A stretch of 60,718 nucleotides of DNA from positions 1-60,718 of the forward strand of contig CAJWKF010000004.1 in NCBI GenBank assembly GCA_913042265.1, written 5' to 3'. Of this stretch, positions 385-60,675 are shown in pieces. The translations under genes were made by a program, and so were the position numbers. The notes under the pieces were generated by a model that had not been told where the DNA came from, did no database searches, and was given only the letters and a program-made list of their open reading frames with translations. Positions within the stretch are counted from its first letter, which is position 1. Each line of letters begins with the position of its first letter. The stretch comes from an uncultured Gammaproteobacteria bacterium (GTDB lineage: Bacteria; Pseudomonadota; Gammaproteobacteria; Nitrosococcales; Methylophagaceae).

Positions 385-981
385 ATGACGAATAAGGTTG
401 ATACCGATAAGCGACGATTTTTGACCAATGCTACGACGGTTGTCGGTAGCATTGGTGCTATAGCCGTCACTATTCCTTTTATCTCATCTTTGTCGCCTAG
501 TGCCAAGGCTCGAGCTGCTGGCGCACCTGTAGAGGTTGATATCAGTAAGCTTGAAATCGGTCAGCTACTGACTATAGAATGGCGAGGTAAACCCGTTTTC
601 GTCTTCCGTCGCTCGGAAGAAACCCTTTCAACACTCGCAAACTTGAAGAGTGAACTGAGGGACCCTCATAGTGAAGAACTTGGTCAACAGCCTGATTACT
701 GCAAAAATGACCTGCGGTCTATTCGGCAAGATTTGATGGTACTTGTCGGTATCTGTACTCATTTAGGCTGCGCGCCTACTTACCGTCCTGAATTGGCTCC
801 TGAAGATTTAGGACCTGACTGGCAGGGTGGATTTTTCTGCCCCTGCCATGGGTCCACGTTTGATCTCGCTGGGCGCGTATACCAGAGTGTTCCTGCTCCT
901 ACAAACTTGGTCGTTCCACCTCATTATTTTATCAATGATAATAAGTTACTCATTGGTAAAGAAAAAATGGAAGCAGCTTAA
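385..981 (+). CDS. petA: Ubiquinol-cytochrome c reductase, Rieske iron-sulfur subunit
   Basis: CTHLGC and CPCHGS cluster motifs, TAT-like N-terminus (DTDKRRFL), followed by cyt b and cyt c1. Confidence 0.97.
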   Translation: MTNKVDTDKRRFLTNATTVVGSIGAIAVTIPFISSLSPSAKARAAGAPVEVDISKLEIGQLLTIEWRGKPVFVFRRSEETLSTLANLKSELRDPHSEELGQQPDYCKNDLRSIRQDLMVLVGICTHLGCAPTYRPELAPEDLGPDWQGGFFCPCHGSTFDLAGRVYQSVPAPTNLVVPPHYFINDNKLLIGKEKMEAA

Positions 982-2192
982 TGCGCTTAATTGAATGGAT
1001 TGATGCCCGCTTTCCAGCAACTAAGTTTGTGAAGGCTCACCTCTCTGAGTACTATGCTCCTCGAAACTTTAATTTTTGGTATTACTTTGGTTTCCTCGCT
1101 CTAATAATTTTAATATTACAGATTGTTACTGGCATCTTTTTGACCATGCATTACAAACCTGACACGGCGCTTGCTTTTGCTTCTGTTGAATATATTATGA
1201 GAGATGTCCCATGGGGATGGCTTATTCGCTATCTTCATTCAACGGGAGCATCCGCTTTTTTTGTAGTTATATATCTCCATATGTTTCGCGGCATACTTTA
1301 CGGCTCTTACAAAGAACCTCGTGAACTAGTTTGGATCTTTGGGATGTTAATTTATTTAACTTTAATGGCTGAAGCCTTCATGGGCTATCTACTTCCTTGG
1401 GGACAAATGTCATTTTGGGGCGCTCAAGTTATTATCTCTTTATTTGGGGCTATACCATATATTGGTGAAGGCTTAGCCTTGTGGATCCGAGGTGATTTTG
1501 TCGTGGCAGATGCAACACTAAACCGCTTTTTTGCCTTTCATGTCATTGCTTTACCCTTAGTATTATTAGCCCTCGTCGTTGCTCATATTACTGCTCTACA
1601 TGAGGTCGGCTCAAATAATCCCGATGGCGTTGATATCAAAAAAACAAAAGATGAGCAAGGTATCCCACTCGACGGGATTGCATTTCACCCTTACTACTCA
1701 TCTAAAGACTTGGTTGGTCTTATCGTCTTTTTGTTTATTTTTTCACTTATTTTATTTTATATGCCTGAGTTCGGCGGATGGTTTTTAGAAAAAGATAACT
1801 TTATCCCAGCCAATCCCCTTCAAACACCTGAACATATTGTACCCTTATGGTATTTTACGCCTTTTTATGCCATCTTACGTGCTGTTCCAGATAAGCTCTT
1901 TGGTGTCATGGCTATGGGTGGTGCAATTGTAGTGCTATTCCTTATCCCTTGGCTGGATCGAAGTCCCGTAAGGTCTATTCGCTACCGAGGTCCATTATTT
2001 CGTATAGCTTTGAGTGTATTTACAATTAGTTTCCTAGCCCTAGGTTACCTTGGTACACAGCCGGCTACAGGCCTCTATACTTCTCTGGCTCAATTCTTTT
2101 CTGTTTTGTATTTTTCTTTTTTCATTTTAATGCCAATATACACCTCATTAGACAAAGACCAACCCGTACCCGAGCGGGTGACGGGGAAATGA
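981..2192 (+). CDS. petB: Cytochrome b subunit of bc1 complex
   Basis: Typical cytochrome b sequence (PLWYFTPFYAILRAVPDK, HYKPDTALAFASVEYIMRDV). Confidence 0.97.
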   Translation: MRLIEWIDARFPATKFVKAHLSEYYAPRNFNFWYYFGFLALIILILQIVTGIFLTMHYKPDTALAFASVEYIMRDVPWGWLIRYLHSTGASAFFVVIYLHMFRGILYGSYKEPRELVWIFGMLIYLTLMAEAFMGYLLPWGQMSFWGAQVIISLFGAIPYIGEGLALWIRGDFVVADATLNRFFAFHVIALPLVLLALVVAHITALHEVGSNNPDGVDIKKTKDEQGIPLDGIAFHPYYSSKDLVGLIVFLFIFSLILFYMPEFGGWFLEKDNFIPANPLQTPEHIVPLWYFTPFYAILRAVPDKLFGVMAMGGAIVVLFLIPWLDRSPVRSIRYRGPLFRIALSVFTISFLALGYLGTQPATGLYTSLAQFFSVLYFSFFILMPIYTSLDKDQPVPERVTGK

Positions 2193-2902
2193 CAAAAGTC
2201 ACTACCACTCTTACTTTTTTACTCGCTTTTTTCACCCTTAACCCTGCTTATGCTGCTTCAGCTCAGTTGCAACTAAAACCAGTTGACATTGATCTCTCTG
2301 ACAAAGCATCTTTGCAGCGCGGCGCCAGAACTTTCATGAACTATTGCTTAACTTGCCATTCTGCGAGTTACATGCGCTATAACCGCATGGGTAGAGATTT
2401 AGGTTTAACAGATGAGCAGGTCAAAGATAGCTTAATGTTTGCCTCCGAAAAGGTTGGAGAAACAATGACTATCGCCATGCGTCCAGATGATGCAAAAAAG
2501 TGGTTTGGGTCTATTCCTCCCGATTTATCCGTTATTTCACGTGCACGTGGTGCAGACTGGCTTTATAGCTACTTCCAAACTTTTTATATAGATAATAAAA
2601 AAGTGATGGGAACAAACAATTCAACTCTTAAAAATGTGGCTATGCCACACGTTCTTTGGCAAGATCAAGGTTATTTACAAAAAGGCACTAATGGTGACTT
2701 AACTCGTCTATCAGATGGTGAGCTTACAAAAGATGAGTACGATGAGATGGCAAGAGATTTAGTGAATTTTTTGGCCTATATTGGTGAGCCATCAAAAATA
2801 CAACGTTTAGCTCTGGGAAAATGGGTGCTAATATACCTCGCACTGTTTTTCTTTGTTGCTTACCCATTAAAAAAAGTTATCTGGGAAGATGTTACTAAAT
2901 AA
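2189..2902 (+). CDS. petC: Cytochrome c1
   Basis: CLTCH haem motif, signal peptide, C-terminal TM anchor; 4-nt overlap with petB. Confidence 0.95.
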   Translation: MTKVTTTLTFLLAFFTLNPAYAASAQLQLKPVDIDLSDKASLQRGARTFMNYCLTCHSASYMRYNRMGRDLGLTDEQVKDSLMFASEKVGETMTIAMRPDDAKKWFGSIPPDLSVISRARGADWLYSYFQTFYIDNKKVMGTNNSTLKNVAMPHVLWQDQGYLQKGTNGDLTRLSDGELTKDEYDEMARDLVNFLAYIGEPSKIQRLALGKWVLIYLALFFFVAYPLKKVIWEDVTK

Positions 2903-2997
2903 GAGTTTAATGTTAGGTGTCTATGCGACCTGCTTTGATAATCCGATTTAGCACCGAGATACACACACAACATCACACTCACAGGAGAAGTATTAAA

Positions 2998-3024
2998 ATG
3001 GCTAATGGCGATCTTAGAATATGA
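2998..3024 (+). other. Putative 8-codon leader ORF (MANGDLRI) whose stop overlaps the sspA start
   Basis: caggagaag SD-like sequence well placed before ATG 2998; TGA at 3022-3024 overlaps ATG at 3021. Confidence 0.4.
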
Positions 3025-3617
3025 TGACTCTTTACTCCGATCCAACTTGTCCCTTATGTCATCGGACTAGGTTTGTTATTCAAGAAAAAGCGTTAGCAGT
3101 TAATATTCTCGATATTACCCAGCAACATTGGCCTGAGGATATTGCAGTTTCTATTCCTTACGGAAAAAGTCCTGTTTTGGTTGAACGAGATCTCATCTTA
3201 TTTGACGCCAATATTATTATTAACTATTTCAATGAACGCTTTTTACAAAACCCTTTAATGCCGACTGACCCTGCCTCTAAAGCACAGGTTCGTTTAATGT
3301 TACATCGAATTGACCTTGATTGGTACGCCTTATGGGAGGCATTAATTGGCAACAAAAAAGGTAAGATGGCTCAGGCAAAACAAACACTTCGTGAGGATCT
3401 CACTATACTTACACCTCTATTCGAGGCCACGCCTTTTTTTATGAGTCAAACGATGTCTCTACTTGATTGTAGTCTTGCACCCTTGCTTTGGCGCCTCCCT
3501 ATGCTCAACATTAAACTCCCCGCTAAAGCGAAAGCTGTCGAGGAGTATGCAGAACGGATTTTTTCTAGGCCTAGTTTTCAAGCGGGCTTAAGTGATAATG
3601 AACGAGCCATGAGATGA
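3021..3617 (+). CDS. sspA: Stringent starvation protein A (GST-fold)
   Basis: MTLYSDPTCPLCHRTRFVIQEK N-terminus, GST fold, followed by sspB. Confidence 0.93.
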   Translation: MMTLYSDPTCPLCHRTRFVIQEKALAVNILDITQQHWPEDIAVSIPYGKSPVLVERDLILFDANIIINYFNERFLQNPLMPTDPASKAQVRLMLHRIDLDWYALWEALIGNKKGKMAQAKQTLREDLTILTPLFEATPFFMSQTMSLLDCSLAPLLWRLPMLNIKLPAKAKAVEEYAERIFSRPSFQAGLSDNERAMR

Positions 3618-57895: not shown

Positions 57896-59302
57896 TCACT
57901 TCGTACTTAGTGCCTTGAATTCTGCAAGGACTCGCATACGCCCATCCGCTAAGTCAATTATAGGCACCGGGTATTCTTCAGGCCTGTTTTTTATTGGGAA
58001 ATGAATTTCTTTATTACTCAAATGTGACAGTTCTGGCAAATAGTGTCGGATAAACTTTCCTTCCGGATCGAACCTTTCAGACTGCCGGACAGGGTTAAAT
58101 AACCTGAAATAAGGTACGGCATCAGTACCAGTTGAGGCACACCACTGCCAACCTCCATTGTTAGCAGCTAAATCTCCATCAATCAGATGTTTCATAAACC
58201 ATCGCTCGCCTAAGCGCCAATCAATCAATAGATGTTTACTTAAAAACATCGCAGTAATCATTCTTAGGCGGTTATGCATCCAGCCACAACTGAGTAACTG
58301 CCGCATTCCTGCATCAATAATTGGAAAACCAGTTTGCCCCTCTTGCCAAGCTTTCAATTCAGTTTCATTATCTCGCCACTGGATAGTGTCTGTTTTTATT
58401 TTCCATGGCTTATGTTTTGATATTTGTGGGTAATCAATAAGTATATGATTATAAAACTCACGCCATAACAATTCATTCTGCCATACAGTTACGCTATCAG
58501 AACTAGCGCAATAGCTTTCTGTAGCATGCCAACATTGTTTTATCGAAATAACACCGCAGGCTAAATAAGGAGATAGCTGACTGGTGCCAGAAACCGATGG
58601 GATATCTCGGTTATGTTCGTAACTCTGAATATCATTCTTATAGAACTGGCTCAATATAGCAGCCGCTGAGTCCTCGCCTGCGAGCCACATTTTTTGGACA
58701 GTGTTTTCCACAGACACCCAAGACACCTCTGTAAGCTCAAGCTCTTCAGGCATGCGAGCCAGCTTAATAGCCTGTTGTTTTTTGGGTGCTGGTAGCATCA
58801 CCATGGGCTCTTGCATTTGTAGTCTTGCCTGTCTAGCAAAGGGCGTAAAGACTTTGAATGGAGCTCCAACTTTAGTTCGAATACTTTTAGGTATTAGTAG
58901 CAACTGCTCATTATAACTTTGTGCTTGCACATCTATTTGGACACAAGCATCGACGACGTGCCGATCTCTTTTCTGTTCATTCACCGCATATTGCTGATTA
59001 AAATGTAGTTGATTTATATCCCATTGCCGACAGATTGATGTAATTAGCTCTGGGACCTCTTGATAAGTCTGAACCTGAAAAAAATGCAAAGTGATATTGA
59101 GTTCTGCAAGCGAAGTATACAAACACTGTAAGTTTCGTCGCCAAAAATCTATTTTGTTAGCCGCATCATCGTGTAATTGCCACTGCTCTGGTGTTGCGAT
59201 GTATATAGCAATAGTAGATTCGCCGCTTTCACTTGCATAAAACAAGGCTGGATTATCATGCACCCGTAGATCATTACGAAACCAAACTAACTGATTTCTC
59301 AT
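57896..59302 (-). CDS. phrB: Deoxyribodipyrimidine photolyase
   Basis: LVWFRNDLRVHDNPAL; HNRLRMITAMFLSKHLLIDWRLGERWFMKHLIDGDLAANNGGWQW. Confidence 0.96.
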   Translation of the reverse strand: MRNQLVWFRNDLRVHDNPALFYASESGESTIAIYIATPEQWQLHDDAANKIDFWRRNLQCLYTSLAELNITLHFFQVQTYQEVPELITSICRQWDINQLHFNQQYAVNEQKRDRHVVDACVQIDVQAQSYNEQLLLIPKSIRTKVGAPFKVFTPFARQARLQMQEPMVMLPAPKKQQAIKLARMPEELELTEVSWVSVENTVQKMWLAGEDSAAAILSQFYKNDIQSYEHNRDIPSVSGTSQLSPYLACGVISIKQCWHATESYCASSDSVTVWQNELLWREFYNHILIDYPQISKHKPWKIKTDTIQWRDNETELKAWQEGQTGFPIIDAGMRQLLSCGWMHNRLRMITAMFLSKHLLIDWRLGERWFMKHLIDGDLAANNGGWQWCASTGTDAVPYFRLFNPVRQSERFDPEGKFIRHYLPELSHLSNKEIHFPIKNRPEEYPVPIIDLADGRMRVLAEFKALSTK

Positions 59303-60207
59303 TTCTTTGATACCAATCGCTCAGACCATGACTGGTAACAATCTGATTCCCAACATGTAAGTGCATTGCCACCTATGTAGTCAATCTCCATATTTGCAAA
59401 TACTTTCTTATGTATCTCAGCTACAAGACCAATGACAATTAAATCCCTGCCCCATAGAGCCCTAGCTTTAACTAGATGATTAATTTCTCGCGTAACGATT
59501 TTGTTATCACCAAAGATAATTAAGGGTTGTTCTAGTGAATTTCTAAGTCGTGGTAGAGCACTCAAGTCACCCACCTGATTAATGACGTTGATCTGGATAC
59601 CCGACTGTAATAATAAAGCGTAAAACAACCAATAATCCAAAGCAGGCTCTTGATCGTCTAAGTTGACTAGCCAACAATTAGCCCACGACTTTTGCTTATC
59701 AGCACGTAAGGTCATAAGGGTTATCTGCCGCTGCCAACATTGCTGCCAGATCTGCTGCTCTAACTCATAGCCTAATGGCTCACTTTGCCATCGTTCCATC
59801 AGTTGATGCAAAAGTGGTTGGTAAACTTTTTTACACAAACCTTCAAATGGAATTGATTTGTTTAACTTATCGAGAAGTGGGTTCAGACTTCTCTGTTTAA
59901 GACCTATGAGTGTGCTCAACAATTCTTGCTTTACTTCCTGCCACGACTCTTCTTCTGTGTTGACTTGAACCGGCGTTTCAGCAGCAGCTAGTAAATCTGT
60001 AACCTTACTAATTGCCACTCCACGATTTAGCCAACTAACGATCTTCATTATTTCTTGAATATTAGCCTTACTATATAAGCGATGACCTTTTGGTGTTCTT
60101 TTTGGTTTTATGAGTCCATAACGCCGTTCCCAGGCCCTCAATGTTACTGCAGCAACACCTGTTTGTTGGCACACCTCACTTATATTAATTTCATCTTCCG
60201 GTTGCAT
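59299..60207 (-). CDS. litR: MerR-family regulator, LitR/CarH-like
   Basis: MerR HTH (INISEVCQQTGVAAVTLRAWERRYGLIKPKRTPKGHRLYS) plus B12-binding-like C-terminal region; 4-nt overlap with phrB. Confidence 0.8.
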   Translation of the reverse strand: MQPEDEINISEVCQQTGVAAVTLRAWERRYGLIKPKRTPKGHRLYSKANIQEIMKIVSWLNRGVAISKVTDLLAAAETPVQVNTEEESWQEVKQELLSTLIGLKQRSLNPLLDKLNKSIPFEGLCKKVYQPLLHQLMERWQSEPLGYELEQQIWQQCWQRQITLMTLRADKQKSWANCWLVNLDDQEPALDYWLFYALLLQSGIQINVINQVGDLSALPRLRNSLEQPLIIFGDNKIVTREINHLVKARALWGRDLIVIGLVAEIHKKVFANMEIDYIGGNALTCWESDCYQSWSERLVSKK

Positions 60208-60330
60208 TGCGAAGGCTTAAGTCCTAAGGGTAGAGTTTTAATAGTTTTATCGAGACCATCACCATGCGACAGTAACTTATTTCAACTTAGATTCTCAAAT
60301 TTATTAAGGATATAGTAACAACAACCTAGT

Positions 60331-60367
60331 AGTTATACAATATGATTTCTTTGTATAATTACGTATT
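60331..60367. promoter_or_regulatory. Operator-like palindrome, copy 1 (TATACA-N12-TGTATA)
   Basis: agttatacaatatgatttctttgtataattacgtatt; 34/37 identical to copy 2. Confidence 0.8.
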
Positions 60368-60500
60368 ACATATAAGGCTTTTTCAGCATAAGATGTCCAC
60401 TAATTCAAAGTATGTTAATTTAAATAAGCACACAAGTAAGTGTTTAAACGATTGATTTATATGAATAGTTTCATTTCAAAATTTGTAAATTTGCAACAGT

Positions 60501-60542
60501 ATACGTAGTTATACAATATTAAATCTTTGTATAATTACGTAT
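60501..60542. promoter_or_regulatory. Operator-like palindrome, copy 2 (TATACA-N12-TGTATA)
   Basis: ATACGTAGTTATACAA-tattaaatct-TTGTATAATTACGTAT, 16-bp arms with one mismatch. Confidence 0.85.
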
Positions 60543-60675
60543 TTAAAGTGTCAAGGTTATCGAATATGATGGCCACTAGTTCGAAATTTTTCGACTAATA
60601 TAAACGGTGGGTCTCCAACTTATTGAGTTGATTCACAACATATATTAAAACTTATTTTTACGAGGTATTTATACC

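Follow-up and report, generated by a model that had tools for sequence, protein, structure and literature searches.

The DNA analysed here (the window, 60,718 bp) is the entire contig C4 of an assembly (G000) of 1,183,704 bases in 97 contigs that is 84% complete. A gene for a LitR-like MerR regulator of 302 aa is located on the reverse strand near the right end of the window (59299..60207; PF13411 4.7e-16; CarH model 2.2e-18, below the cutoff of that model). The reverse-strand phrB gene (57896..59302) encodes a CPD-type deoxyribodipyrimidine photolyase (NF007955 525.6 bits, cutoff 506) and overlaps litR by 4 bp, as in an operon. A divergent gene for an AlkB-like membrane di-iron hydroxylase starts on the forward strand at the same start as in G019 and is truncated where the contig stops (60676..60718).

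The window covers just the first 43 nt of the AlkB-like gene, and the features of its product were read from the copy in G019 (FRAM18_bin228, a marine MAG from Fram Strait). G019 is the nearest relative, with a LitR 82% identical to that of the window. The G019 product of 393 aa matched FA_desaturase (PF00487, 3.3e-25) and the solved alkane 1-monooxygenases (8sbb at 9e-27, and also 8f6t). The product has the FA_desaturase-type di-iron fold together with NYMEHYGL, an instance of the AlkB motif NYxEHYG. The next gene in G019 encodes a 2Fe-2S/FAD reductase. The AlkB-like paralogues of G019 are 98% identical. Assemblies break inside such near-identical paralogues (the ends of C4 and C53 in G000, C1 in G013, C12 and C21 in G012) and the AlkB-like copy number in MAGs is therefore underestimated.

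A remnant of the rudS 5' end (TudS+DUF1722) is located on the reverse strand between the first palindrome and the MerR gene (60262..60297). It corresponds by alignment to nt 1-36 of G019 rudS and has stop codons in the matching frame, while the rest of the gene has been deleted. Most relatives have rudS, whose product is a tRNA 4-thiouridine desulfidase (PMC11417400), between the site and litR. The RudS of G019 (L047 5864-6670) has an internal deletion of 46 residues that removed SPSCG of the desulfidase domain. The full RudS of 314 aa is kept in other LitR genomes.

Twin putative operators and predicted promoters

The intergenic stretch of 468 bp contains two copies of a palindrome. Copy 1 (60331-60367) reads AGTTATACAATATGATTTCTTTGTATAATTACGTATT and copy 2 (60507-60543) reads AGTTATACAATATTAAATCTTTGTATAATTACGTATT. 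Re-reading of the sequence confirmed the description in the initial annotation: both copies are equal at 34 of 37 positions with all three differences in the central spacer, both have perfect 8-bp arms, and the arms of copy 2 extend to 16 bp with one mismatch (60501-60516, ATACGTAGTTATACAA, against 60527-60542). Both unstranded operators have the form TTATACAA-N10-TTGTATAA. Operator 1 spans 60333..60358 (24-base core 60334-60357) and operator 2 spans 60509..60534 (24-base core 60510-60533). Operator 2 exhibits a symmetric extension with TACGTA on either side (60501-60542).

Given the base composition, chance alone would yield about 0.25 exact 12-base dyads per 1.18-Mb genome and about 0.0003 within the 468-bp stretch, and about 0.002 copies of the 16-base dyad genome-wide. 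The genome scan for TATACA-N12-TGTATA that had been proposed with the first description found the motif to be rare. Three perfect matches were found in the 1.18-Mb assembly (none for the reversed-pattern control), two of them at the litR locus and the third at C53:417-440, between the start of a second AlkB-like gene and norD/norQ-like genes. The scan allowing two mismatches gave 53 matches vs 69 for the control, which is background, and the pattern is therefore informative only where a site matches exactly or nearly so. In G000 and G019, the relaxed pattern TACAA-N10-TTGTA gave, besides the known sites, background only. The relaxed matches that were rejected are C4:10388 (overlaps the 3' end of a glyS-like gene), those on C6 and C42 (coding), and C25:3523 (nadK/ndk intergenic, without outer symmetry).

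The repeated unit extends beyond the 37-bp repeats that had been noted earlier. Local alignment of 60277..60425 (copy 1 of the module, unstranded) with 60457..60605 (copy 2, unstranded) scored 104, compared to a maximum of 68 in 200 shuffles. The whole promoter-operator module of about 150 bp is thus duplicated in tandem, and therefore the two near-identical palindromes share one orientation between the divergent genes. The module is also duplicated in G019 with a nearly equal offset (176 bp in the window genome, 179 bp in G019), and G019 contains a 24-mer identical to the core of operator 1. The duplication predates the split of the window genome from G019.

The predicted leftward litR-phr promoter (60312..60340, reverse strand) has its -35 element TTGTAT (60335-60340) inside operator 1 and, at 17-bp spacing, the -10 element TACTAT (60312-60317) with an extended TG. 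Two rightward promoters are predicted on the forward strand, both with 17-bp spacing. P1 (60366..60394; -35 TTACAT 60366-60371, -10 TAAGAT 60389-60394) lies directly right of operator 1 and TACGTA (60360-60365). P2 (60542..60570; -35 TTTAAA 60542-60547, -10 TATGAT 60565-60570) lies directly right of operator 2 and TACGTA (60536-60541). Both window copies are of the rightward type, and the leftward -10 element is present at copy 1 alone.

Both geometries are conserved. In 14 of 15 loci, counting 13 of the 14 in the genus and the one in G384 (another family), the operator arm (TTGTAT or TTGTAC) forms the leftward -35 element and an extended -10 element follows at exactly 17 bp. The extended -10 element has the form TGn-TAnnnT (TGG-TAATCT in G384), and the litR locus of G013 is the sole misfit. 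The rightward alkB/norD-type sites have a TAnnnT -10 element at offset 38 from the start of TTGTAT (10 of 11) or 39 (1 of 11). Their -35 element is weak and TT-rich, at offset 15 from the arm start, straight after the conserved TACGTA. A clear promoter fit was not found for the site at the GST-like gene of G019.

TACGTA beside the operator arm (60536-60541 and 60502-60507 in the window) was observed at all alkB/norD-type sites, where it forms a GTAT direct repeat 10 bp from the arm. It is possibly a third or fourth half-site for a tetramer. An ECF sigma reading (TGATC-N18-CGTAT) of the conserved TACGTATT flank was rejected by hand, as the window copies have no correctly spaced TGATC.

The operator arm is also the leftward -35 element and therefore a bound regulator should block the leftward promoter. 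The operator centre at the rightward promoters lies at about -55, just upstream of the -35 element, a position that would suit an activator or a repressor.

Distribution of the dyad among related genomes

The 29 genomes of the genus contain 22 sites matching TRTACAA-N10-TTGTAYA, compared to 2 matches of the reversed-pattern control. Every one of the 14 genomes with a gene for the LitR-like MerR has the dyad, and the 15 genomes without LitR have none. All 14 LitR genomes keep the dyad at the litR locus, where it is intergenic every time. Most of the 22 sites represent this one inherited locus, so the co-occurrence does not amount to 29 independent tests. The independent evidence consists of six distal sites vs a background of about two.

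At the litR locus, the site always has rudS or litR-phr to one side and the divergent gene to the other, while the neighbours vary. The divergent gene is alkB-like in G000, G019, G011, and G012, and probably also in G003 and G013. Eight LitR genomes of the genus have a divergent SDR gene and no alkB-like gene there, and in several genomes hemH comes after the SDR gene. The whole arrangement is also present in G384 (LitR 53%). The arms of the genus sites are conserved and the spacer is variable, while the -35/-10 elements remain in register.

The distal sites comprise an orthologous pair at the alkB2/norD-like promoters of G000 (C53) and G019, a site at an alkB-like gene of G013, a site at the same place of the rrmJ-ftsH gap in G012 and G013, and the site at the GST-like gene of G019. 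The ftsH sites exhibit 18-bp spacing and a TATGCT -10 element in both genomes. The rrmJ-ftsH dyads are located at L076 7381 and L079 7452 with an extended -10 promoter (G013, G012). These sites suggest that ftsH may be a target of light or photodamage in the G012/G013 species.

The genes divergent to the second AlkB-like gene encode a norD/CbbO-like VWA protein and a CbbQ/NorQ-like AAA+ protein (L004 (C53) 534-3457; L077 7080-10003), and one operator is common to both sides. The two proteins perhaps work as a pair that loads metal into the di-iron enzyme. In many relatives (L053, L054, L055, L056, L057, L058, L051, and L144), the SDR gene that diverges from rudS-litR-phr is followed by hemH (ferrochelatase), a placement that suggests porphyrin removal within the same response.

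Classification of the regulator and search for a light sensor

The initial annotation had given T(G/A)TACA-N12-TGTA(C/T)A as the site of class II LitR in Pseudomonas. This is the footprinted PplR1/PmlR2 site (PMC9758184), both window sites fit it, and they lie at the regulator's own photolyase operon. The class II regulons (P. putida PplR1-3, P. mendocina PmlR1/2; PMC9758184) have in common with the window system the operator consensus, paired sites at the promoter with one site on the -35 element, litR beside phrB, a furan-fatty-acid cluster (in relatives), and a MerR without a functional B12 domain. The class II label itself is not supported for the window LitR, judged by the B12-binding_2 domain, the LOV partner, and phylogeny. 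Unlike class II Pseudomonas, the window system has no detectable short-LOV anti-repressor or Pfam B12-binding_2 domain and falls on a separate tree branch. It also differs in the operator upstream of the rightward -35 element, in the alkB-like, norD-like, and ftsH promoters as targets, and in the loss of rudS from the window genome.

The best solved-structure matches of the LitR DNA-binding domain are CarH/LitR (5c8d, 3whp), and the PDB matches to CarH cover this domain alone. No B12 domain was found in the window LitR above the Pfam cutoff, and PF02607 (B12-binding_2), the four-helix domain that class II LitRs keep although they lack the second B12 domain, had no match at E<=1. The same domain scored 0.0086 in G019 LitR (16.7 bits, cutoff 23) and 2e-5 in the Pseudomonas-like G201a. 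The MerR-type DNA-binding domain is common to CarH and the class I LitRs (Thermus, Myxococcus, Bacillus), unlike which the window LitR lacks W-x9-E-H and the ExHxxG histidine. Based on the adenosylcobalamin-contact residues named in PMC11796333 (helical-bundle W, E, and H, and a Rossmann-domain His), all 15 clade members keep the W, have Q/K/L/I and Q/S in place of E-H, and miss the second His. The contact residues are retained in 13 B12-type relatives.

The tree included the window clade, Pseudomonas-like G201 (so called by gene content only), B12-type LitRs, and sequences from Aeromonas and Vibrionaceae. Within it, the window clade groups with the RudS-linked MerR of Vibrionaceae at 98/93, apart from G201a/b, a grouping that carries moderate weight because the branches are long. 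The Vibrionaceae operon (V. cholerae VCA0056-0057, PMC5241685; Salinivibrio, Photobacterium) resembles the window system in the gene order rudS-merR-phrB, the upstream dyads, and the lack of a B12 domain and of a recognised sensor. Salinivibrio has two perfect TGTACA-N12-TGTACA copies, 50 bp apart, upstream of the rudS-merR-phr operon. An upstream dyad is also present in the Pseudomonas-like G201. The differences are an identity of about 33-39% over aligned parts, the N11 spacers in V. campbellii and Photobacterium, and, in Salinivibrio and Photobacterium, furan-fatty-acid genes after phr in the same direction with no alkB-like gene seen adjoining. The half-site spacing upstream of rudS (L191, L192, L188, and L189) is 12 except in Aeromonas (13) and in V. 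campbellii and at a single Photobacterium site (11 each).

Class IV comprises the Vibrio LitRs without a B12 domain, whose function has been described as unknown (PMC9758184). The tree and the operon order agree with Vibrionaceae and the B12 residues are absent, which makes class IV (Vibrio type) a better guess than class II, from a comparison and a tree built without the published class IV set. The mode of action is clearer than the class and is most likely that of a self-controlling LitR operator repressing litR-phr.

All components of the known system are present in G201: the site, RudS, LitR, and Phr, plus another LitR next to a short LOV protein. The latter is 66% identical to PpSB1-LOV and was detected as the control of the sensor search. 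No protein with the LOV motif [ND]CRFLQ was found by motif scan in the LitR-carrying genomes of the genus. LOV-like proteins at E<=1e-5 were not found in G000 (84% complete), G013, and G019 (both 99% complete). The similarity search serves as a screen, and the motif scan is independent of its query. Two LOV matches were rejected as sensors, one in G001 (not in PAS context) and one in G010 (a PAS-GGDEF protein with NPRILQ, in which the Cys is absent). BLUF was not found in most LitR genomes, including the nearly complete G019 and G013. It is present in G010, G015, and G024 only, and thus does not track LitR.

Proposed mechanism and its alternatives

The two palindromes are well supported by their sequence and distribution as a genuine LitR-family operator pair with a regulon. 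The sites overlap the conserved litR-phr promoter and therefore autoregulation is the natural reading, so that this part of the autoregulated light-response regulon proposed in the initial annotation stands. The light part would follow from gene content and homologues.

The palindromes are probably the operators of the adjacent LitR-like MerR, which would repress litR-phrB until a light or photo-oxidative signal arrives, with the alkB-like gene in the same regulon. The regulator would bind operator 1 over the -35 element of the leftward promoter, most likely keep the photolyase operon to which it belongs repressed in darkness or without stress, and be released on the signal. The duplicated operator module lies just upstream of the -35 elements of P1 and P2, tandem promoters that would drive the divergent AlkB-like gene, and this position would place that gene in the same regulon. 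The sequence comparisons themselves show the sites, their conservation and co-occurrence with LitR, their position on conserved promoter elements, the duplication, and the rudS loss. We infer binding by the LitR protein, repression at litR-phr, the sign of control at alkB, and light as the signal.

It is possible, though on balance doubtful, that the LitR-like protein binds these operators in response to a metabolic or oxidative cue (singlet oxygen, porphyrin, an alkane or fatty-acid signal), with the photolyase as one stress gene among others and no direct role of light. The lack of B12-contact residues in LitR, of LOV-motif proteins in the LitR genomes and of BLUF in most of them, and the hemH in the divergent operon of several relatives would all suit such a cue. 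The blue-light response of V. cholerae requires both ChrR and the phr-linked MerR, is normal in cryptochrome/photolyase mutants, and has no other recognised photoreceptor (PMC5241685), which is also in line with an indirect cue. However, photolyase, RudS, and furan-fatty-acid genes of such clusters are light-linked in relatives (PMC9758184, PMC11417400), and a LOV-independent light sensor may reside in the C-terminal domain of LitR. An unlikely further reading is that LitR without cobalamin or LOV reads light, or photochemical by-products, by an undescribed route in a marine lineage and acts from one operator module with opposite signs, repressing rudS-litR-phr (operator as the -35 element) and activating the alkB-like gene (operator just upstream of it). 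If true, DNA photorepair and the hydroxylation of hydrocarbons or lipids would be coupled across the light cycle.

Control by another regulator of the AlkB genes, such as a FixJ-like response regulator on C53, with the nearness to litR incidental, is improbable. Many sites are flanked by alkB-like genes and a PAS histidine kinase/LuxR-type regulator pair is located near the third site on C53, but the site persists between rudS-litR-phr and SDR in the eight LitR genomes without an alkB-like gene there, the alkB-like genes of the LitR-less G016 and G017 carry no site, and the dyad matches the footprinted LitR consensus. Mobile-element leftovers, RNA hairpins or terminators, or an assembly artefact can practically be dismissed as the source of the paired repeats: they are direct repeats in a duplicated segment at a contig end, beside an AlkB-like gene where the assembly breaks, but the independent high-contiguity G019 has the same duplication, single copies are conserved elsewhere without duplication, and the arms are conserved against a variable spacer with the promoter elements in register.

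The operator, the repeated sites, and the operon logic are those of LitR regulons. The new elements are a marine LitR branch without LOV and B12, a duplicated module with two promoter geometries, and alkB-like, norD-like, and ftsH targets, all predictions as to function. With these findings, the LitR operator code known from Pseudomonas also covers Vibrionaceae and an uncultured genus of marine Gammaproteobacteria, and there is a predictable DNA target for a LitR branch that has been described as of unknown function. In addition to Vibrio, the genus is a second lineage with such a regulator but no recognised photoreceptor. An alkane-hydroxylase-like enzyme, norD/norQ-like genes, and ftsH are predicted to be tied to the photolyase regulon.
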